Assembly: GCF_000521865.1 (NCBI RefSeq)
Contig: NZ_JAME01000036.1
Span: 1-44,392, forward strand
DNA from: Roseivivax isoporae LMG 25204
GTDB taxonomy: Bacteria > Pseudomonadota > Alphaproteobacteria > Rhodobacterales > Rhodobacteraceae
Length of the DNA stretch: 44,392 bases
Reading direction: 5' to 3'
Shown here: positions 35,585-44,050 of the stretch, in pieces
Layout of the letters: every line of letters begins with the position of its first letter
Position numbering within the stretch: the stretch's first letter is position 1
Translations under genes and position numbers: made by a program
The notes under the pieces: generated by a model
The model's database searches: none
Told to the model about the DNA's origin: nothing
Seen by the model: only the letters and a program-made list of their open reading frames with translations

Positions 35585-37279
35585 TCAGCCGATGATCTCG
35601 AACCGCGTGACGTCGACCATGCCGCGGTCCGTGATCTTGAGCGCGGGAATGACCGGCAGCGCGAGGAAGGACAGCTGCAGGAACGGCTCGTGCAGCGTCA
35701 CCCCCAGATCGCGCGCCGCGGCGCGCAGGTCGCGCAGCCGGTCGCGCACCGTCTCGAAGCTCTCGAGGCTCATGAGGCCCGCGACCGGCAGCGCGAGCTC
35801 GGCGCGCACCCTGCCCCCGCGCACCACCACGAAGCCGCCCTCGATCTCGCCCAGCCGGTTCGCGGCCACGGCCATGTCGTCGTAGTCCGCGCCCACCGCC
35901 ACGATGTTGTGGTGGTCGTGGCAAAGCGTCGAGGCGATGGCGCCGGCCTGCATGCCGAACCCGCGCACGAACCCTGTGGCGATGTTGCCGTTCCGGCCGT
36001 GCCGTTCGATCACCGCGACGCGCATCAGGTCGCGCGCGGGATCGGGGCGCTTGTCGCCGTCCTCGATCGCGATGTCCTCGTGCAGGTGGTCGGTCAGGAT
36101 GCGCCCCTCGCGGACGCCGATCACGTCGGTCTCCTGACGGTTGCCGGTGCTGCGGAAATCGGCCGCCGCGACGCGCGGCGCACGGACCGATTCCCGCCCG
36201 ACCGGCGGCAGGTCCCCCCGCGCGGCGAAGGCCGCGTCGTCGGCCACGACGCCGCCCGCGATCACGAAGGCCACGTCGCAGCTGTCGACGTCGTTCAGCG
36301 CCACGATGTCGGCCCGGTAGCCCGGCGCGATCAGCCCGCGGTCCCTGAGCCCGAACGCCTCGGCCGCCGAAAGCGACGCCGCCCGATAGGCGGCGAGCGG
36401 CGGCGTGCCGCGCGCGATCAGCGTCCGGATCATGTGGTCGAGGTGGCCCTCTTCGGCGATGTCGAGCGGATTGCGGTCGTCGGTACAGAGGCACATGTAG
36501 GGCGCGGTCCGCTCGGTCAGGACCGGCTGCAGCGCCTCGAGGTCCTTCGACACCGACCCTTCGCGGATCAGGACCCGCATCCCGCGCATGAGCTTCTCCC
36601 GCGCCTCGGCGGCCGAGGTCGCCTCGTGCTCGGTCCGTATCCCGGCGGCGCAGTAGGCGTTGAGGTCGCGCCCCGACAGGAGCGGGCAATGCCCGTCGAC
36701 ATGCCCGCCCTCGAAGAGCGCGAGCTTGGCAAGCGCCGCGGGATCGCGGTGGATCACGCCCGGGTAGTTCATGAACTCGGCCAGCCCGATCCCCGACGGA
36801 TGCCCCCTGAGCGCGGCGAGGTCGTCGGCATCTAGCGCCGCGCCCGCCGTCTCCATGTGCGTCGAGGGCACGCAGGAGGACAGCTGCACGCGCAGGTCCA
36901 TAACCGTGTGCTCGGACGCACGCTGGAAGTAGCGGATGCCCTCGGCGCCGATCACGTTCGCGATCTCGTGCGGGTCGCAGATCGCGGTCGTCACCCCGTG
37001 CGGGGTCACGCAGCGGTCGAACTCGAGCGGCGTCACGAGCGAGCTTTCCACGTGCAGGTGGGTGTCGATGAAGCCCGGCACCAGCGTCAGGCCCGTGGCA
37101 TCGATCACGCGCGCGCCCTCGTAGGCATGCCCCGTGCCCACGATGGTCTTCCCGAGGATCGCCACGTCCCCCTCGAAGGTCTCGCCCGTCACGAGGTCGA
37201 GCACGCGTGCGCCCCGCAGGACGAGATCCGCGGGCGCGTCCCCGCGCGCGGCGGCGATGCGGGAGGCGAGGTCGGTCAT
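35585..37279 (-). CDS. ade: Adenine deaminase
   Basis: A 564-residue metal-dependent amidohydrolase that turns adenine into hypoxanthine. Metal motif DTHLHVESS (His74, His76) and later [15 protein letters not shown] and the C-terminal HDHHNIV block are typical. The ATG at 37279 begins a normal ADE N-terminus; the longer frame upstream is Pro/Arg-rich. With hpt next door it completes adenine to IMP salvage. Confidence 0.94.
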
Positions 37280-37432
37280 GGGTGGCTCCGTGGCTTGCTC
37301 GGTCTCGGTCGGGCTCAGGAGACCGCGTTCCGACCGGACATGCCAGCCCTGCCGATCACGGGATGGGGAATGTGGCTCGGGAGACGGCGAAAGAGGAGGC
37401 GGCACGCCGCCCCCTCTCCGCTGTGCGACGAC

Positions 37433-37585
37433 CTATTGGGAACGGCCGCCCCGGGCCAGGGAGGACGATTGCCGCTCCCGGTCGTCGCGCAGGTTGCGCT
37501 CACGCGGCACCGCAGTGACCACGTAGATCAGTAGTGCGATGAAGGAGAGCGCAGCCAGCCCTGCGATGAAAACATCGGTCGACAT
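37433..37585 (-). CDS. 50-residue membrane protein, likely stress-induced
   Basis: A small protein with one hydrophobic segment (about 6-26, GLAALSFIALLIYVVTAV) and a highly charged tail (RERNLRDDRERQ). AAGGA lies eight bases before the ATG. It is divergent from the PRC-barrel gene across a 104-base gap that has back-to-back GGAAC promoters, so it may belong to the EcfG regulon. Confidence 0.6.
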   Translation of the reverse strand: MSTDVFIAGLAALSFIALLIYVVTAVPRERNLRDDRERQSSSLARGGRSQ

Positions 37586-37616
37586 TTGCTCATTCCTTCT
37601 GCTCGTTTGGCAGAAG

Positions 37617-37642
37617 AACACGCCGCTTGCGCCGAAAGTTCC
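37617..37642 (-). promoter_or_regulatory. Candidate EcfG promoter for 50-residue membrane protein
   Basis: On the minus strand, -35 GGAAC (37638-37642), 17-base spacer, -10 TGTT (37617-37620), about 32 bases from the start codon. The -35 shares the palindrome GTTCCGGAAC (37638-37647) with the opposite promoter. The -10 differs from the CGTT consensus at one base. Confidence 0.4.
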
Positions 37643-37667
37643 GGAACAGTCGGGTGCATGGCGGGTT
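37643..37667 (+). promoter_or_regulatory. Candidate EcfG promoter for PRC-barrel gene
   Basis: -35 GGAAC (37643-37647), 16-base spacer, -10 GGTT (37664-37667), 22 bases before the start codon of the PRC-barrel gene. Spacing fits the alphaproteobacterial general-stress consensus GGAAC-N16/17-CGTT. Confidence 0.55.
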
Positions 37668-37689
37668 TGACGTGCAGGAGGGGCACACC

Positions 37690-38412
37690 ATGCTGATCAG
37701 TCTGGCAGATCTTCTGACCTTTCGAATCCGCGCCGGCGAGGCCCGGCATCCGGTCGGCGACCTGCTGTTCGACGGGGCGACCATGGCGCCGGCCTACCTG
37801 TCCGTGGACATCGGCGGCTGGCTCGAGCGCGAATGCCTGCTGGTTGCCGCCGCACGCATGCGCGACGTCGATCCGGCCGGCGGCGAGGTCATCCTCGACA
37901 CGCGGGAGGACGAGTTGCGCGATGCGCCCCGCTGGCGGGACGACCAGCCGCTCGGCGATTTCCTCGCCGCGATGCCACCGCTCGTCGTCGGGCCCTTCGG
38001 CGCGACCCACGCGCCGCTCGCCATGGCGGCGGAGCTTTCCCCGCAGCGCAGTCCCGACGACGCGGGCGGCGACGCGCGGGCGCTGGAACTGCTCGAACGG
38101 TTCGAGAGCGCCTCGGACTGGATCGGGTCCGAGGTCTTCGGCGCGGACGGCGCGCTCGGCACGCTCGCAAGCCTCGTCCTCGACACCGGGCAGAACCGCC
38201 TCACCCATCTCGTCATCGACAACGAGAAGGTGCTGGCGGGAAAGCTTCTCGCGGTGCCGGCGTCGATCCTGCGGCACCGGGCCAAGGGCGGTCACCTCGT
38301 GCTCGACGTGACGCGCGCGGCACTCAACGCCGCTCCGCAGATGCGGGACCTGGGCGACCTCGACCAGCGCGGGACGACGGCGCTGCACGCGCATTTCGTT
38401 CCGCCGATGTGA
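37690..38412 (+). CDS. PRC-barrel domain protein
   Basis: A 240-residue protein with two PRC-barrel-like units: one at about 1-100 (GEARHPVGDLLFDGATMAPAY) and one at about 145-225 (DWIGSEVFGADGALGTLASL, then LTHLVIDNEKVLAGKLLAVP). GCAGGAGGGG precedes the ATG. PRC-barrel proteins are frequent in alphaproteobacterial stress regulons. It carries an EcfG-like promoter and converges on the GATase-like gene 12 bases away. Molecular role unknown. Confidence 0.82.
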   Translation: MLISLADLLTFRIRAGEARHPVGDLLFDGATMAPAYLSVDIGGWLERECLLVAAARMRDVDPAGGEVILDTREDELRDAPRWRDDQPLGDFLAAMPPLVVGPFGATHAPLAMAAELSPQRSPDDAGGDARALELLERFESASDWIGSEVFGADGALGTLASLVLDTGQNRLTHLVIDNEKVLAGKLLAVPASILRHRAKGGHLVLDVTRAALNAAPQMRDLGDLDQRGTTALHAHFVPPM

Positions 38413-38424
38413 TCGGGGCTTTCC

Positions 38425-39183
38425 TCAGGCCCGCGCCGCCGGTCCCCCCGGCACGCCGTTGAGGCGCGCCTCGGCATCGGCCGCCTCGACCTGGCCGCGG
38501 TCGCCCCGGCGCGCATTGGCCGCCTCGATCAGCGCGCGGAACAGCCGTCGATGGGCACGCCGGTAGAACAGGTGCTCGGGGTGCCACTGGACCCCGAGCG
38601 CGAAGGGATCGCGCACCCGCTCCACCGCCTGGATCATGCCGCCCTCGTCGCGCGCGGCAACCTGCAGGCCGCGGCCGAGATTGCGCACGGCCTGGGTGTG
38701 GAGCGCGTTCACATCGAGGCACGGCACCCCTGTCGTGCGCGCGAGCAGCGTGTCGGGCGCGACGCTCACCCGTTTCTTCGGCAGGATCGTGCGGATGTAG
38801 CGCGAGGGGTAGACCTTGTACGCCTCCTGATGCAGGTCGCCGCCCAGCACCACGTTCAGCATCTGCGCGCCGCGGCAGATGCCGAGGACCGGCAGGCAGC
38901 GGTCGTAGGCCTCGCGCAGGACGCGCGCCTCGAGCGCGTCGCGGTCGGGATCGAGCCGGACGCCCACCCGGATCTCGCCGCCGTAGAGCGTGGGCGCGAT
39001 GTCGTCGCCGCCGCCGATGACCACGCCGTCCACCGCGGCGAGGTCCACGTCCCCGCCGGCGCGCCACTTGACCGCGCGCCCGCCGGCGAGCCGGATCGCA
39101 AGCCACATGAGAGGAAAGATGCGCCAGCCCGAACGGCGCGACACCGTCACGCCGATGACCGGCCGGCCGTCTCCTGTGGTCAT
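38425..39183 (-). CDS. Class I glutamine-amidotransferase-like hydrolase (peptidase C26)
   Basis: A 252-residue protein of the gamma-glutamyl-GABA hydrolase (PuuD-like) family. Catalytic Cys103 in LGICRGAQ and His201/Glu203 in VQWHPEH are intact; an IGGGDDIAP oxyanion-region segment is at 56-64. It would cleave gamma-glutamyl amides or similar isopeptide bonds. Its ATG overlaps the stop of the amidoligase gene (ATGA). Amidoligase plus C26 hydrolase pairs were described by comparative genomics as peptide-bond making and breaking modules. Confidence 0.88.
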   Translation of the reverse strand: MTTGDGRPVIGVTVSRRSGWRIFPLMWLAIRLAGGRAVKWRAGGDVDLAAVDGVVIGGGDDIAPTLYGGEIRVGVRLDPDRDALEARVLREAYDRCLPVLGICRGAQMLNVVLGGDLHQEAYKVYPSRYIRTILPKKRVSVAPDTLLARTTGVPCLDVNALHTQAVRNLGRGLQVAARDEGGMIQAVERVRDPFALGVQWHPEHLFYRRAHRRLFRALIEAANARRGDRGQVEAADAEARLNGVPGGPAARA

Positions 39184-40133
39184 GCGAAGGCCCCGAGCTT
39201 CTCGGTGACGTGCCGGGTCCAGTCGCTGCGCAGGGTTGCAAGCGCGGCGCGGTGCGCCCGCCATTCGCGGCAGAGCGCGCCCACGAGGCCTGCATCCGCG
39301 GCCAGACGCTCGATCCTCACCCAGCGGTTCCACTCGAGCGCGAGCGACCAGTCCGGCTCGTCGATGCGGCAGTCGGGCAGACGGTAATGGTAGGTCGGCC
39401 GCGCCGACACGAGGCCCATGTCCATTCTCGTCGCCACCCGATCACGGTCGAGATGCGCGAAGAGGCACGTCATGTCGAGCCCGTGGTTCCGCGACGGCGC
39501 ACGCTCGAGGTAGAGGTCGATGAGCGCGGTCATGTCGCCCGGCCGCGAGTCGGCCGCGAGCCCGTCGAGGAGCGGGCGCGGATAGGTCTCGATGAAGGGC
39601 AGGACGCGCCGGGCGATGTCGATGCCCATCTCGCGCCGCAGCGCATCCTCGCAGAGCGCGAAGACCGTGACCACGGGCAGGACACGGTCGATCTCGGGCG
39701 CGACGATCTCGGGATTGAAGTGCACGCCGAAGCCGAGGAACAGCCCCGCGCTCGTGCCGGTGGCGCCCGCATCGCGCAGGCGCACCACGAGCCGGTCGAG
39801 ATCGGCGATGCGCGCCGGCTCGATGGGCTGCGTGACGATCTCGACCGGCACGACCGTACGGGCGACGTTGTGCACGCTTTCCGCGAACTTGCCCTCGGGG
39901 CGGCCCAGATAGGCGGTGTCGAGGTAGACCTCCATGTCGCCGAGCTCGCCCCCCTCGACCACGAGCCCCTTGTCCTCGCGGCGGGCGATCTCGCCGCCGA
40001 AGGTGTCGCGCACGATGTCGGCCACCTGCGTCTCGGGCAGGCCGCCGAGCTCGATCTCGACGCCCACGCGGCGCGGCGTGCCCTCGGCGGTGTTCGGCTC
40101 GGGCAGGTCCTGGATGTCGGGCGGTTGGGACAC
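39180..40133 (-). CDS. Putative amidoligase (glutamine-synthetase-like fold)
   Basis: A 317-residue protein of the COOH-NH2 amidoligase family. It has the GVEIELGGL strand (Glu26, Glu28; metal/ATP ligands in the GS fold), a GVHFNPEI block and a late YHYRLPDCRIDEPDW block. Such enzymes are predicted to join amines to carboxylates with ATP. Start is GTG at 40133; GAGGAGG lies about 12 bases upstream. It begins 23 bases after the histidine kinase gene, without a terminator, so it may be co-transcribed with nepR-ecfG-kinase. Substrate unknown. Confidence 0.82.
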   Translation of the reverse strand: MSQPPDIQDLPEPNTAEGTPRRVGVEIELGGLPETQVADIVRDTFGGEIARREDKGLVVEGGELGDMEVYLDTAYLGRPEGKFAESVHNVARTVVPVEIVTQPIEPARIADLDRLVVRLRDAGATGTSAGLFLGFGVHFNPEIVAPEIDRVLPVVTVFALCEDALRREMGIDIARRVLPFIETYPRPLLDGLAADSRPGDMTALIDLYLERAPSRNHGLDMTCLFAHLDRDRVATRMDMGLVSARPTYHYRLPDCRIDEPDWSLALEWNRWVRIERLAADAGLVGALCREWRAHRAALATLRSDWTRHVTEKLGAFA

Positions 40134-40156
40134 GGGACGCGGGTCCTCCTCTGGGC

Positions 40157-41887
40157 TCAGTAATCGACCACTTCGGGCTTGAAGTCGGACAGGTGGAAAC
40201 GCACCGCGACCACGTAGCGGTCGCCCGCCGGCCCCTGTTCCAGCGCGCCGCCGAGCTGCGTCGCGAAGGCCTGGATGAGCCGCGTGCCGAGGCCCGGACG
40301 CGCGCCCGCGGCATCCGCATCAGGTTCGGCGAGATGGCTGTTCGAGATCTCGAGCCGCACCGAGCGGTCGGGCTCGATCCTGAGCTCCACGTGGATGCGG
40401 CACATGCCGTCCGGATCGGGCGCCATGTACTTGCCCGCGTTGGTCAGCGCCTCGGCGGTCAGGAGCGACATGGGCACCGCCTGGTCGGGATAGACCTCCA
40501 CGTCCGCGAGGCTCTTCGTCATCTCGAGCCCGTCGCTGTCCTTGGGCGGCAGGATGGTCATCTGCGCGATCAGGTCCGACAGCAACTCGCTCGCGTTCAC
40601 GTGGCCGAGATCGCCGGTCTGGTAGAGATTGCGGTGGATGGTGGCGAGACCGCGGATCCGCTCCTGCAGCCGCTGCAGCACCAGCCGGGTTTCCTGCGCC
40701 TCGCTCTGGCGGATCTGCATGTTCATGATCGACGAGATGAGCTGCAGGTTGTTCTTCACCCGGTGGTGGACCTCCTTCAGCAGGATGGTCTTTTCCCGGA
40801 GCGTGTTCTCGAGCTGCGCCTCGTCCTGCAGGATCGAATCCGCCATGTGCAGGAAATCGTTCTCCATGTCCCGCAGTTCCAGCGCCATGTCCGCGGCGTT
40901 GCTCTGCGAGGGCACGCGGCGGTCGCGGGCAAAGCTGCGCATCTGCTGGCGCAGGGTCCGGATGTGGCGGATCACCAGGCGGTTGACCGCGAGGTAGGCG
41001 ACGATGACGCTCGCCGCCCACATCACGAGCGGCAACGTCCGCGCGATGCCCGTGCCGCCGAGCGATGTGGCCGCGGAGCTGTCCCGCGGCCACACGCTCA
41101 GGGCGTAGACGAGGTTCGGCACCACGGGCGACAGCGCGAAGATGCGGCTCTCGCCATCCGCGCTCCGCGCGAGGAAGCTGTGCTCGGACGACCCCGCGAG
41201 CGAGGCGAGGTCGATGTCCGCCGGCAGGTGGGCGCGCGTGTCCTCCCAGTCGCTGTTCGCGGTCAGGAGCTGGCCGGTGCGGCTGAAGGTCACGATGTTC
41301 TCGTACTCGGTCTCGCGCCCCGTGTCGCGCGGCCGCATCTGGTCGACCGGGATCGAGATCGCGACATGCCCGTACATGACCCCGTCGACCTCGAACGGCT
41401 CGGACACGACGATCACCGGCGTCGAGCTGACCGCCGGGTTGTCGATGCGCGTGACCGCCGGGAACGGCTCCTGGATCGCGGCCAGCATGCGCGGGTAGTT
41501 CCGCAGGTCGACCGCGGTATCCGTCGACGAACACTTCACCCGCCCGCTTTTCAGCAGGACGCCGACGAAGCTGTAGTTCTGGCTCGATTCGCGGAAGTCG
41601 GAGAGGTAGGCGCTGCATTCCTCGGGATCGACGCCGACGACGCTGCGCGTCGCCCCCATGGCTTCGGCAGCACCGAGCGCGCGCAGGATCAGCGACCGCT
41701 CGGAATTCGCGGCCGCCTCGGTCACGCCGGCGATGCTGAGCTCCGCGCGGGCGCGCGTCTCGCGGTCAAGCTGCGTGGTCTGGAAGTAGGCGACGAGACC
41801 GATCGGAACCAGCGCAATGGTCAGGAACCCGATGATCCGCGCCCCGAGTCCGCTGGGGACCGGCCTCGGTCCGGGGGCGCCGATCAT
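40157..41887 (-). CDS. Membrane HWE/HisKA_2-type histidine kinase, likely PhyR kinase
   Basis: A 576-residue sensor. Membrane segments at about 16-34 and 284-303 enclose a periplasmic Cache/dCache-like sensor. After a coiled-coil linker comes the HisKA_2 motif KEVHHRVKNNLQL (phospho-His374), then an ATPase domain with N-box LTAEALTNAGKYM and G-box GLGTRLI. This kinase class phosphorylates PhyR in the general stress response. The gene is three bases downstream of ecfG. Ligand unknown. Confidence 0.9.
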   Translation of the reverse strand: MIGAPGPRPVPSGLGARIIGFLTIALVPIGLVAYFQTTQLDRETRARAELSIAGVTEAAANSERSLILRALGAAEAMGATRSVVGVDPEECSAYLSDFRESSQNYSFVGVLLKSGRVKCSSTDTAVDLRNYPRMLAAIQEPFPAVTRIDNPAVSSTPVIVVSEPFEVDGVMYGHVAISIPVDQMRPRDTGRETEYENIVTFSRTGQLLTANSDWEDTRAHLPADIDLASLAGSSEHSFLARSADGESRIFALSPVVPNLVYALSVWPRDSSAATSLGGTGIARTLPLVMWAASVIVAYLAVNRLVIRHIRTLRQQMRSFARDRRVPSQSNAADMALELRDMENDFLHMADSILQDEAQLENTLREKTILLKEVHHRVKNNLQLISSIMNMQIRQSEAQETRLVLQRLQERIRGLATIHRNLYQTGDLGHVNASELLSDLIAQMTILPPKDSDGLEMTKSLADVEVYPDQAVPMSLLTAEALTNAGKYMAPDPDGMCRIHVELRIEPDRSVRLEISNSHLAEPDADAAGARPGLGTRLIQAFATQLGGALEQGPAGDRYVVAVRFHLSDFKPEVVDY

Positions 41888-41890
41888 GAC

Positions 41891-42448
41891 TCAGCCCGCT
41901 GCGCTGACTTTGTTGCCCGACACCACCGCCATTGTGGCGCTGTCGGTCATCTCCAGCGCCTCGTTCTCGCTCAGGTGCATGAGCTCGGCAAGACGCGCGC
42001 GCGCCCGGTTCGTCCGGCTCTTGATCGTGCCCACGGCGACCCCGCACATGTTCGCGGCCTCCTCGTAGGAGAAGCCCGACGCGCCCACGAGGATCAGCGC
42101 CTCGCGCTGCTCGTCGTTGAGCTTGGCGAAGGCGCGGCGGAAATCCGCGAGCTGGAGGCGGCCGTCATGGGCCGGCTTCTCCGACAGGCTCTCGGTCATC
42201 ACGCCCTCAGAATCCGAGATCTCGCGACCGGCCTTCCGGCGGTTGGAGTAGTAGGTGTTGCGGAGGATGGTGAACAACCACGCACGCATGTTCGTGCCGG
42301 GTTCGAAGGTGTGGATCTTGGTCCACGCCTTCACCAGACTGTCCTGCACCATGTCGTCCGCCAGCGCGGAGTTCCGCGTCAGGCTGAGCGCAAAGGCACG
42401 CAGCGCAGGGAGGTGTTCGACGATCTCATCGCGAGGATCGGCATTCAT
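41891..42448 (-). CDS. ecfG: EcfG, general-stress ECF sigma factor
   Basis: A 185-residue ECF15-type sigma factor. Region 2 (LPALRAFALSLTRNSALADDMVQD, with WLFTILRNTYYSNRRK) and region 4 (LNDEQREALILVGASGFSYEEAA, then GTIKSRTNRARARL) are clear. The quoted parts match PhyR's sigma-like domain closely, as expected for the partner switch. Its ATG overlaps the nepR stop. It recognises GGAAC-N16/17-CGTT promoters. Confidence 0.95.
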   Translation of the reverse strand: MNADPRDEIVEHLPALRAFALSLTRNSALADDMVQDSLVKAWTKIHTFEPGTNMRAWLFTILRNTYYSNRRKAGREISDSEGVMTESLSEKPAHDGRLQLADFRRAFAKLNDEQREALILVGASGFSYEEAANMCGVAVGTIKSRTNRARARLAELMHLSENEALEMTDSATMAVVSGNKVSAAG

Positions 42449-42612
42449 CGACTGCTCCCGCCCTGCTCCGGCTTCTGCTCCTGCTCCTTCAGCTGAGAGA
42501 GCAGATCCAGAAATCGGTCGGGCACTTTTTGGTCCAGCATGTCCTGATAAACACGCTTGAGATTCTCGTCTATCACTTGCGCCTGCTTTGTATTGTCCCG
42601 GGTCTGAGCCAT
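42445..42612 (-). CDS. nepR: NepR, anti-sigma factor of EcfG
   Basis: A 55-residue protein found by reading the minus strand from ATG at 42612. It carries the NepR core IDENLKRVYQDMLDQKVPDR followed by FLDLLSQL, two helices that clamp EcfG or phosphorylated PhyR. The tail is Gln/Glu-rich. Its stop overlaps the ecfG start (ATGA). GGAACAAG lies upstream as a ribosome site. The gene is easily missed because it is so short. Confidence 0.95.
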   Translation of the reverse strand: MAQTRDNTKQAQVIDENLKRVYQDMLDQKVPDRFLDLLSQLKEQEQKPEQGGSSR

Positions 42613-42657
42613 CTTGTTCCTTGCCCGCGGTTCGGCCGTTTACTCGTCAATGTCACC

Positions 42658-42682
42658 GGAACCAACTGCACCATGGCGCGTT
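42658..42682 (+). promoter_or_regulatory. EcfG promoter of phyR
   Basis: -35 GGAAC (42658-42662), 16-base spacer, -10 CGTT (42679-42682), a perfect consensus match, 34 bases before the phyR ATG. Confidence 0.8.
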
Positions 42683-42689
42683 TGGTTCC
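42664..42689 (-). promoter_or_regulatory. EcfG promoter of nepR-ecfG
   Basis: On the minus strand, -35 GGAAC (42685-42689), 17-base spacer, -10 AGTT (42664-42667), about 52 bases before nepR. It overlaps the phyR promoter almost completely, the two forming a near-palindrome, so the two directions may compete for one polymerase. Confidence 0.65.
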
Positions 42690-42716
42690 CGAAAAAAGAT
42701 CACAAGGGAATCTCAC

Positions 42717-43517
42717 ATGACACAGGCGGACCTCAGCAGCGAGATCGGCACCGCATTGCCCTACCTGCGGCGCTATGCCCGCGCGCTGACCGGCGCCCAG
42801 ACGTCTGGGGACAAGTATGCCGCGGCCACCCTTGAGGCGGTGCTCGCGGACCGCAGCATCTTTTCGGAAGCAAGCTCTGCCAAGGTCGGATTGTTCCGAG
42901 TCTTCCACGGCATCTGGGTCACCACCGGCGCGCCGGTGACGGACGAGGATTCCGGGCCCCGGGCGGCGGCGCAGCGGCATCTCGCGCGGCTGACCACCAA
43001 CAGCCGGGAAGCGCTGCTCCTCCACACGATCGAGGAATTCACCATCCCCGAAGTGGGCGAGATCATGCAGATCGGCTCCGACGAGGCCGACACGCTGGTC
43101 GAGACCGCGCGGCAGGAAATGGCGGACGGGCTTTCGGGGCGGGTGCTCATCATCGAGGACGAGGCGATCATCGCCATGGACCTCGAGAGCATCGTCGCGG
43201 ATCTCGGTCACCGCGTGACGGGCGTCGCGCGGACGCGCGACGGCGCGGTGAAGCTCGGCGCACAGGAGACGCCGGACCTGATCCTCGCGGACATCCAGCT
43301 TGCGGACAACTCGTCGGGGGTCGACGCGGTCAACGACCTCCTGTCCGACCTCGGCCAGCGGCCGGTGATCTTCATCACCGCCTTCCCCGAGCGGCTTCTG
43401 ACCGGGGACAAGCCCGAACCGGCCTTCCTGATCTCGAAGCCCTATTCCGAGGAGCAGGTGCGCTCGGCGATCAGCCAGGCCATGTTCTTCTCCTCGACGG
43501 AGACGCTGCGCGCCTGA
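42717..43517 (+). CDS. phyR: PhyR, anti-anti-sigma response regulator
   Basis: A 266-residue protein: a sigma-like domain (1-138, resembling EcfG regions 2 and 4) fused to a receiver domain (RVLIIEDEAIIAMDLE) with phospho-acceptor Asp192 in LADIQLAD and conserved Lys in LISKPYSEE. When phosphorylated it binds NepR and frees EcfG. AAGGGAA precedes the ATG. Divergent from nepR-ecfG. Confidence 0.96.
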   Translation: MTQADLSSEIGTALPYLRRYARALTGAQTSGDKYAAATLEAVLADRSIFSEASSAKVGLFRVFHGIWVTTGAPVTDEDSGPRAAAQRHLARLTTNSREALLLHTIEEFTIPEVGEIMQIGSDEADTLVETARQEMADGLSGRVLIIEDEAIIAMDLESIVADLGHRVTGVARTRDGAVKLGAQETPDLILADIQLADNSSGVDAVNDLLSDLGQRPVIFITAFPERLLTGDKPEPAFLISKPYSEEQVRSAISQAMFFSSTETLRA

Positions 43518-43783
43518 GCGCGCCGCGCGATCCGGGACCTGCGCGCCGGAGGCACGGCCTTCGGCGCGCGTCGTCTCCCGGGGACCTGGATGCCCTCGGG
43601 GCGTGGCGGCCGCGCCGCCTCACCGATCCTAGGACGCCGTCGCGCCGCGACGGCGCCGGGGACGACGGGATCGCACCGGTGGTGTCCAAGGTATTGTTTC
43701 TCGGACTTGCATCGCCCGTGCGCTCGTCTAATCGGGGATGCGGGGTCCCGTGCGGGACACCCGACCGAAGCCCGGAGTGCCCG
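43518..43783. other. Intergenic region downstream of phyR
   Basis: 266 bases with no supported gene. GC-rich self-complementary runs follow the phyR stop. Near 43708-43735 a TTGCAT-N16-TAATCG arrangement could be a sigma-70 promoter for the small secreted protein. No GGAAC promoter is seen. Confidence 0.35.
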
Positions 43784-44050
43784 ATGACCCGTTCCGCCCT
43801 TGCCGCCCTGCTCGCCGCGCTCTGCCCCGTCCCCGCGTCGGCGCAGCAGGACGCGTCCCGGCCAGAGACCGGGCGCGCCGACATCGTCCGCATCATGGAT
43901 GTCCTCGCCGGCATCCGCTGCGAGATCGCCCCGGACGACATCGAGCCCACGCGCTCGGGCTACGCGCTGCACGACGTTCTGTGCCCGGACGGCCGCTACG
44001 AGATCGTGCTCGACGACAGCCTGCAGATCACCGACCGCCGCCGCCAGTAA
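43784..44050 (+). CDS. Small secreted hypothetical protein with two cysteines
   Basis: An 88-residue protein. The signal peptide is MTRSALAALLAALCPVPASA, predicted to be cut after ASA-Q. The mature part of about 68 residues has two cysteines (GIRCEIAP and DVLCPDGR) that could form a disulfide. The start at 43784 has GGAG seven bases upstream. I do not recognise a family. Confidence 0.7.
   Translation: MTRSALAALLAALCPVPASAQQDASRPETGRADIVRIMDVLAGIRCEIAPDDIEPTRSGYALHDVLCPDGRYEIVLDDSLQITDRRRQ

Follow-up and report, generated by a model that had tools for sequence, protein, structure and literature searches.

An amidoligase and C26 hydrolase gene pair as a probable output of the PhyR-NepR-EcfG general stress response in part of the Rhodobacteraceae

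The general stress response (GSR) is turned on when a stress-activated kinase leads PhyR to remove the anti-sigma factor NepR from the sigma factor EcfG. In the window analysed here, which is the whole contig of 44,392 bases from the 4.9-Mb genome of Roseivivax isoporae LMG 25204, the genes of this switch are followed by a pair encoding an amidoligase (Amidoligase_2 family) and a hydrolase of the Peptidase_C26 family (C26). With a probability of about 0.6, this pair serves as an output module of the PhyR-NepR-EcfG GSR in a large part of the Rhodobacteraceae, forming and hydrolysing a gamma-glutamyl-type amide. The pair is probably GSR-controlled because in relatives it often lies inside or beside the GSR locus or is preceded by a switch of the kind found at GSR genes. 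This wiring is well supported by comparison between genomes, and the two proteins are probably a stress-response enzyme pair. The following features of the window are concerned:

42717..43517, plus strand: phyR, anti-anti-sigma response regulator, 266 aa (PF22029, PF22233, PF00072; NF006623 352.8 bits, cut-off 240)
42658..42682, plus strand: EcfG-type motif for phyR, GGAAC-N17-GTT (motif scan)
42664..42689, minus strand: EcfG-type motif for the nepR-ecfG-kinase-amidoligase-C26 string, GGAAC-N18-GTT (motif scan)
42445..42612, minus strand: nepR, anti-sigma factor, 55 aa (PF18557, 2.6e-16)
41891..42448, minus strand: ecfG sigma factor, 185 aa (sigma-70 r2/r4; NF009198 327.5 bits, cut-off 270)
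40157..41887, minus strand: HisKA_2 sensor kinase of 576 aa, PhyK-like along most of the protein (PF07568, 4.6e-22)
39180..40133, minus strand: Amidoligase_2, putative glutamine-synthetase-like carboxylate-amine ligase, 317 aa, GTG start (PF12224, 2.5e-46)
38425..39183, minus strand: Peptidase_C26, gamma-glutamyl-amide hydrolase-like, 252 aa (PF07722, 5.3e-43)

By open reading frame (ORF) coordinates and Pfam matches, phyR is divergent from a string in the order nepR, ecfG, PhyK-like kinase, amidoligase and C26, and each member of the PhyR-NepR-EcfG core gave a family match. The divergence of phyR from nepR-ecfG-kinase is shared with alphaproteobacterial loci that carry a HisKA_2/HWE kinase such as PhyK. 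Against the PhyK equivalog NF051872 the kinase reached 199 bits over residues 22-553, below the cut-off of 750, and it is therefore called PhyK-like only. An earlier sequence-only reading of the window had described the string as tightly packed, and the coordinates bear this out: nepR and ecfG overlap by 4 bases, a 3-base gap separates ecfG from the kinase, 23 bases (40134-40156) lie between kinase and amidoligase, and the amidoligase stop overlaps the C26 start by 4 bases. As that reading had also stated, there is no terminator between kinase and amidoligase among the four terminator-like stems predicted in 37200-43700; four stems are at chance level (shuffles: mean 2.3, s.d. 1.9), and the two on the minus strand lie inside ecfG and inside C26. 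A separate, EcfG-independent promoter of the amidoligase, which the same reading had named as what would speak against it, did not appear either, as no sigma-70-like site was found in 37200-43700.

EcfG-type promoters were scored with a strict motif (GGAAC-N15-18-GTT), searched from -150 to +30 of the amidoligase start, and with a weight matrix built from phyR and nepR promoters only (threshold 10 bits). The intergenic stretch between nepR and phyR holds back-to-back motifs (42689 on the minus and 42658 on the plus strand). The window amidoligase has no EcfG-type motif of its own (best matrix score 6.0); the motif of its gene string is that at 42689, before nepR as the first gene. In the proposed model, the window pair would be the promoter-distal portion of the core regulatory operon and would be transcribed from this promoter, and in many relatives the pair would lie elsewhere under an EcfG-type promoter of its own. 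Upon activation of the kinase by stress, PhyR would take NepR off EcfG and the operon would be turned on. The ATP-dependent, glutamine-synthetase-like ligase would then form an amide between an amine and a carboxylate; this carboxylate would most likely be the gamma-carboxyl of glutamate or of a glutamyl group. The co-translated C26 would hydrolyse that gamma-glutamyl amide or a downstream one, and in this way a product made under stress could be recycled. Transcription from EcfG-type promoters, the gamma-glutamyl chemistry and a small-molecule substrate are what we infer from the comparisons below.

A family sample of 295 Rhodobacteraceae genomes, one per genus, was searched with the PF12224 profile, which matched in 50 of them. 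These gave 49 usable loci, window included; L049 was dropped, its divergent match not being found by tblastn, and L050, cut by a contig end, was kept for position and omitted from the 48-sequence alignment and tree. A named set comprised the best 80 of the 584 named amidoligase matches listed and is thus biased towards the window; with eleven of its loci identical to family loci, the two sets together hold 118 unique loci. An outside-family set was taken from other families of the class and comprised 24 loci, 23 of them usable (L183 had no tblastn match; the window genome and G075 were left out as members of the same family).

In 22 of the 49 family loci, phyR or ecfG lies within 10 kb of the amidoligase (10 operon-like, 12 in other arrangements), and 27 loci have neither; random placement in 4-Mb genomes would predict about 0.25 linked loci (20 kb/4 Mb x 49). 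In the ten operon-like loci the pair follows the kinase or ecfG immediately and in the same orientation, with script-called gaps of -17 to +196. In the named set 23 loci are operon-like, 11 near and 46 unlinked, and the 118 unique loci divide into 31, 23 and 64. When neighbouring frames were clustered without labels, the commonest families after C26 included those of phyR, the kinase and ecfG, and also one of ABC-transporter ATPases. The contiguous order phyR, divergent from nepR-ecfG-kinase-amidoligase-C26, recurs in Roseivivax, Salipiger, Alloyangia, Thalassococcus, Puniceibacterium, Pseudooceanicola, Anianabacter, Mesobaculum and Tranquillimonas; the conserved neighbourhood in Rhodobacteraceae that the sequence-only reading had proposed as a check is therefore found, in nine genera. 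Among the matches listed, the named amidoligases nearest to that of the window are from Roseivivax. The script-called kinase-amidoligase junction measures -1 to +10 in five named Roseivivax and is a 17-base overlap in 5/5 Salipiger and 2/2 Alloyangia.

The pair itself is more constant than its position. C26 starts before, or no more than 30 bases from, the amidoligase stop in 44/49 family, 76/80 named and 20/23 outside-family loci, and the 4-base overlap recurs in 32/49, 52/80 and 6/23, respectively. An amidoligase with no adjoining C26 was seen in three family loci that are not cut off (L039, L056, L079). Clustering of the 24 outside-family loci, whose neighbours were not all identified, revealed no third constant partner near the pair. 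Because the pair is kept nearly everywhere and 0/23 loci are linked outside the family, it resembles an older module of two genes, with a chemistry of its own, that was recruited by the GSR within the Rhodobacteraceae.

The tight kinase junction (-17 to +27 in named Roseivivax, Salipiger, Alloyangia and Puniceibacterium) and the position in the core operon would also fit a role within GSR signalling, in which the pair provides feedback by reversibly attaching an amide-linked group to a GSR protein, for instance the kinase. This is very improbable, as 39 of the 49 family loci are not in the core operon, the pair also occurs in genomes with no NepR match, and a constant acceptor tail was not seen in the small neighbour protein described below.

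EcfG-type motifs were then considered at amidoligases in all positions. The strict motif precedes the amidoligase in 24/49 family loci and the reversed motif in 1/49, while 500 single-base shuffles gave a mean of 0.30 and at most 2. Marivita hallyeonensis and Donghicola tyrosinivorans are examples in which the pair lies outside the core operon and has a motif of its own. It was found at 33/607 other called genes of the family loci, several of which are themselves likely stress genes, and before C26 in 0/45 family loci. As positive control, the motif was present before phyR in 52/53 loci, and in the nepR-side orientation in 42/53 phyR upstream regions (duplicates included). Matrix matches before the amidoligase were obtained in 22/49 family, 16/80 named and 1/23 outside-family loci, compared to 21/607 other genes and 0.7% of shuffles, and 28 of 39 matrix sites lie 24-52 bases before the inferred start codon. 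Position or promoter ties 35/49 family loci to the GSR, and 34/43 of those in NepR-positive genomes.

The motif also follows the presence of the regulator. NepR status was determined by tblastn for the 34 linked named loci and by a separate search for the other 46. At loci far from the GSR core among the 118, the strict motif occurs in 15/42 NepR-positive vs 2/22 NepR-negative genomes (one-sided Fisher p 0.019); with nearby non-operon loci added the figures are 30/65 vs 2/22 (p 0.0012), and for all 118 loci 34/96 vs 2/22 (p 0.011). The two NepR-negative loci with the motif belong to an Azospirillum (L157) and to a metagenome-assembled genome (MAG) labelled Oceanospirillaceae (L135). The latter carries a Rhodobacteraceae-like amidoligase-C26 locus, for which mis-binning or transfer is possible. 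In the family sample, NepR was found in 139/295 genomes, and in 44/50 amidoligase carriers vs 95/245 non-carriers (odds ratio 11.6, p 6e-11, kinship ignored); 95 of the 139 NepR-positive genomes have no amidoligase. A NepR as divergent as that of Rhodobacter sphaeroides, reported at 25% identity (PMC5830050), could be missed by this search. PF22233 was tried as a PhyR marker and rejected: at E 0.001 it is too loose, matching 258/295 genomes and also Bacillus, and NepR was therefore kept as the GSR marker. With PF22233, the six NepR-negative carriers scored 2.6e-6 or worse, or gave no match, and the 44 NepR-positive carriers 3.1e-7 or better.

A second recurrent site of the pair is beside an rlmN-like gene (identified by eye) in nine family loci (L032, L034, L040, L044, L065, L066, L071, L075, L078); most of these are also near an IalB-family gene and an asparaginase-like gene (by eye). 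Such a site, together with carriers that have neither link nor motif (e.g. several Rhodovulum, some with no NepR match), might indicate that the cluster arose by chance or hitchhiking and that the pair is a housekeeping metabolic module near the GSR locus by accident. Linkage is in addition partly inherited on the amidoligase tree: among 48 sequences the linked state changes at least 11 times, compared to a mean of 15.9 and a smallest value of 11 for shuffled labels, which argues for partial inheritance within clades and against one single event. The tree was built by a quick method, with 12/45 inner branches well supported, and since the number of changes does not separate gain from loss, an old operon broken many times is as possible as repeated arrival. 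An accidental neighbourhood is nevertheless unlikely, given adjacency in differing arrangements and EcfG-type motifs at unlinked loci; 7/9 of the rlmN-side loci score at least 10 for the EcfG-type motif.

The chemistry of the pair was approached through both proteins. The window amidoligase matches PF12224 with 159 bits (cut-off 22) over profile positions 2-244 of 245, and E26, E28, D72, E98, N140, R175, R215, R245, H249, R251 and E275, putative catalytic or metal residues, are invariant in 48/48 aligned family sequences. No PDB sequence match was obtained up to E 10. A fold search with the amidoligase model (pLDDT 89.7) ranked YbdK first, weakly (E 2.7e-3, TM 0.27), followed by a predicted glutathione synthase of Salmonella and an unrelated HMG-CoA reductase, with glutamine synthetases at ranks 4, 6 and lower. 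The fold matches thus lean towards the glutamine-synthetase-like superfamily and name no substrate; YbdK and the gamma-glutamylcysteine-ligase-like ligases belong to different sequence families. For C26, the triad C103/H201/E203 is intact in 45/45 aligned sequences, and the nearest structures to the model (pLDDT 87.5) were lin1909, SpuA and PuuD (E 5.6e-20 to 5.2e-16), the next group starting at 1.5e-12. Together, these matches point to gamma-glutamyl-type amides as the most plausible chemistry of the pair. The suggestion of the sequence-only reading that the pair makes and removes an amide-linked modification is in agreement with the intact active-site residues and the C26 fold, and less so with the ligase, whose fold fit is weak; making and removing an amide would be the best of several chemical readings.

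One of these is that C26 is a glutaminase feeding ammonia to the amidoligase; the two would then be subunits of a glutamine-dependent amidotransferase capping a carboxylate, and not a make-and-break pair. C26 is a member of the class-I GATase superfamily (PF00117, 2.3e-14), and near-constant pairing and overlap suggest a complex. However, in sequence and fold C26 is nearest to the stand-alone hydrolases SpuA and PuuD (E 1e-16 to 1e-20), with glutaminase subunits of synthases ranking behind lin1909, SpuA and PuuD (1e-12 and weaker). Its VNxLHxQ stretch aligns with lin1909 and SpuA (sequence search, cut at E 1e-10), and amidoligases exist with no adjoining C26 in the three loci named above, which leaves the glutaminase as a rather unlikely alternative. 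It is also unlikely, to a slightly greater degree, that ligase and C26 put a glutamyl-type amide on a protein or an envelope component and take it off again, as a dedicated, reversible stress modification encoded in the GSR operon itself.

Several points weigh against a GSR output module that makes and hydrolyses a gamma-glutamyl amide. Nine of the 43 NepR-positive family loci show neither adjacency nor motif, six family carriers have no NepR match, and outside the family 0/23 loci are linked to phyR or ecfG, with a NepR match in 9/24 of those genomes; the unlinked NepR-positive loci, the NepR-negative carriers and the lack of linkage outside the family therefore speak for a GSR-independent use of the pair. 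In the named set the motif is rarer than in the family set, and the co-occurrence of amidoligase and NepR was calculated irrespective of kinship. L057 (identical to L123, Primorskyibacter), which was counted among the 35 tied loci, has a matrix score of 17.8 in a genome with no NepR match, with a 19-base spacer that falls outside the strict motif, and counts against the comparison by NepR status. On the protein side, the amidoligase model found no fold match at E 0.001 or better, and an unrelated enzyme ranks third. Finally, to encode a synthetase and a hydrolase of the same bond on a single transcript would be wasteful of ATP unless substrate or regulation keeps the two enzymes apart.

Ligation and hydrolysis of gamma-glutamyl amides are familiar from polyamine catabolism by gamma-glutamylation, as carried out by PuuA-PuuD in Escherichia coli and with SpuA in Pseudomonas. 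Like these, the window pair would combine a putative glutamine-synthetase-like ligase with a putative C26 gamma-glutamyl-amide hydrolase, whose fold matches PuuD and SpuA. Unlike PuuA, the ligase is from another branch (PF12224), and C26 reached 83.1 bits against the PuuD equivalog NF008471, below the cut-off of 266. An adjacent Amidoligase_2 and C26 (class-I GAT-like peptidase) gene pair was reportedly described by Iyer et al. in 2009, with a make-and-break logic proposed, and we know of no GSR link in that work. The two adjacent families are the same here; in part of one family they are in addition found in GSR operons or apparently under EcfG control. According to the Pfam description of the amidoligase family, its partners are GAT-type peptidases in proteobacteria and AIG2-type cyclotransferases in fungi; the presence of two unrelated folds that cleave gamma-glutamyl groups next to a single ligase family would likewise point to gamma-glutamyl-type amides.

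The R. sphaeroides GSR locus RSP_1271-1274 has phyR, a sigma factor and a kinase in divergent orientation, and a Crp-Fnr gene; PhyR is of importance under membrane stress (PMC5830050). Unlike this locus, that of the window is extended behind the kinase by amidoligase and C26, genes that the text on the R. sphaeroides locus does not mention (PMC5830050). In phages, PF12224 is paired with a PF13522-type glutamine amidotransferase instead of C26, as stated in two reports (PMC10580990, PMC3890496). Searches for PF12224, and for amidoligase with Roseobacter, returned phage work only in the literature covered. An amidoligase tied to the general stress response was not found in that literature, whose scope excludes supplements and most subscription papers, so that mention in a regulon table is possible; within this scope, the view of the sequence-only reading that such a pair in a PhyR-NepR-EcfG operon is undescribed stands. 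What is presented is thus a known two-enzyme module in a regulatory setting for which no description was found, rather than a new kind of system. The pair is widespread and its function was not found in the literature; its tie to one regulator and one type of trigger in culturable strains makes the substrate searchable.

The far end of the block holds two further genes, each with its own motif:

37690..38412, plus strand: PRC-barrel gene, 240 aa, convergent with C26 (PF05239, 5.4e-12)
37643..37667, plus strand: EcfG-type motif for the PRC gene (motif scan)
37617..37642, minus strand: EcfG-type motif for the 50-aa gene (motif scan)
37433..37585, minus strand: 50-aa protein with one hydrophobic stretch, no Pfam family

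The back-to-back GGAAC promoters that had been ascribed to these genes were recovered as motifs at 37643 on the plus and 37642 on the minus strand. Motifs at both ends of the block agree with the earlier idea that it is framed by EcfG-type promoters; of the far pair, however, one motif faces the block and would serve the PRC gene, and the other points outwards and would serve the 50-aa gene. Neither can serve the amidoligase operon, because the PRC gene is oriented towards it and only 12 bases separate the stops of the PRC gene and C26. The proposed gene order holds from nepR to C26 and not for the PRC barrel, which is no constant part: relatives of the PRC gene occur in 17/154 loci (window included), 14 of the 17 being preceded by an EcfG-type motif, roughly at -34 to -60. 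Relatives of the 50-aa protein (34-54 aa, one hydrophobic stretch) occur in 13/154 loci (window included), with a motif upstream in 12 of 13. A Pup-like reading of this protein was discarded, as a C-terminal Gln is found only in the window copy of the 13 and no constant Gln/Glu end exists; a similar tail is present within Roseivivax and absent from other copies. Further neighbours with EcfG-type motifs encode Dps-like ferritin, DUF7218/Rho_N, formate/nitrite-transporter-like and phospholipase-D-like proteins, and the area therefore appears rich in likely GSR targets.

Downstream of phyR and near the contig end, an 87-aa frame at 43787-44050 of the window begins with a signal-like stretch (by eye) and matched no Pfam family. 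In another locus (L072:10794-12037), formate/nitrite-transporter-like and DUF7218/Rho_N genes diverge from one stretch with an EcfG-type motif on both strands, and the same two families carry motifs in L045.

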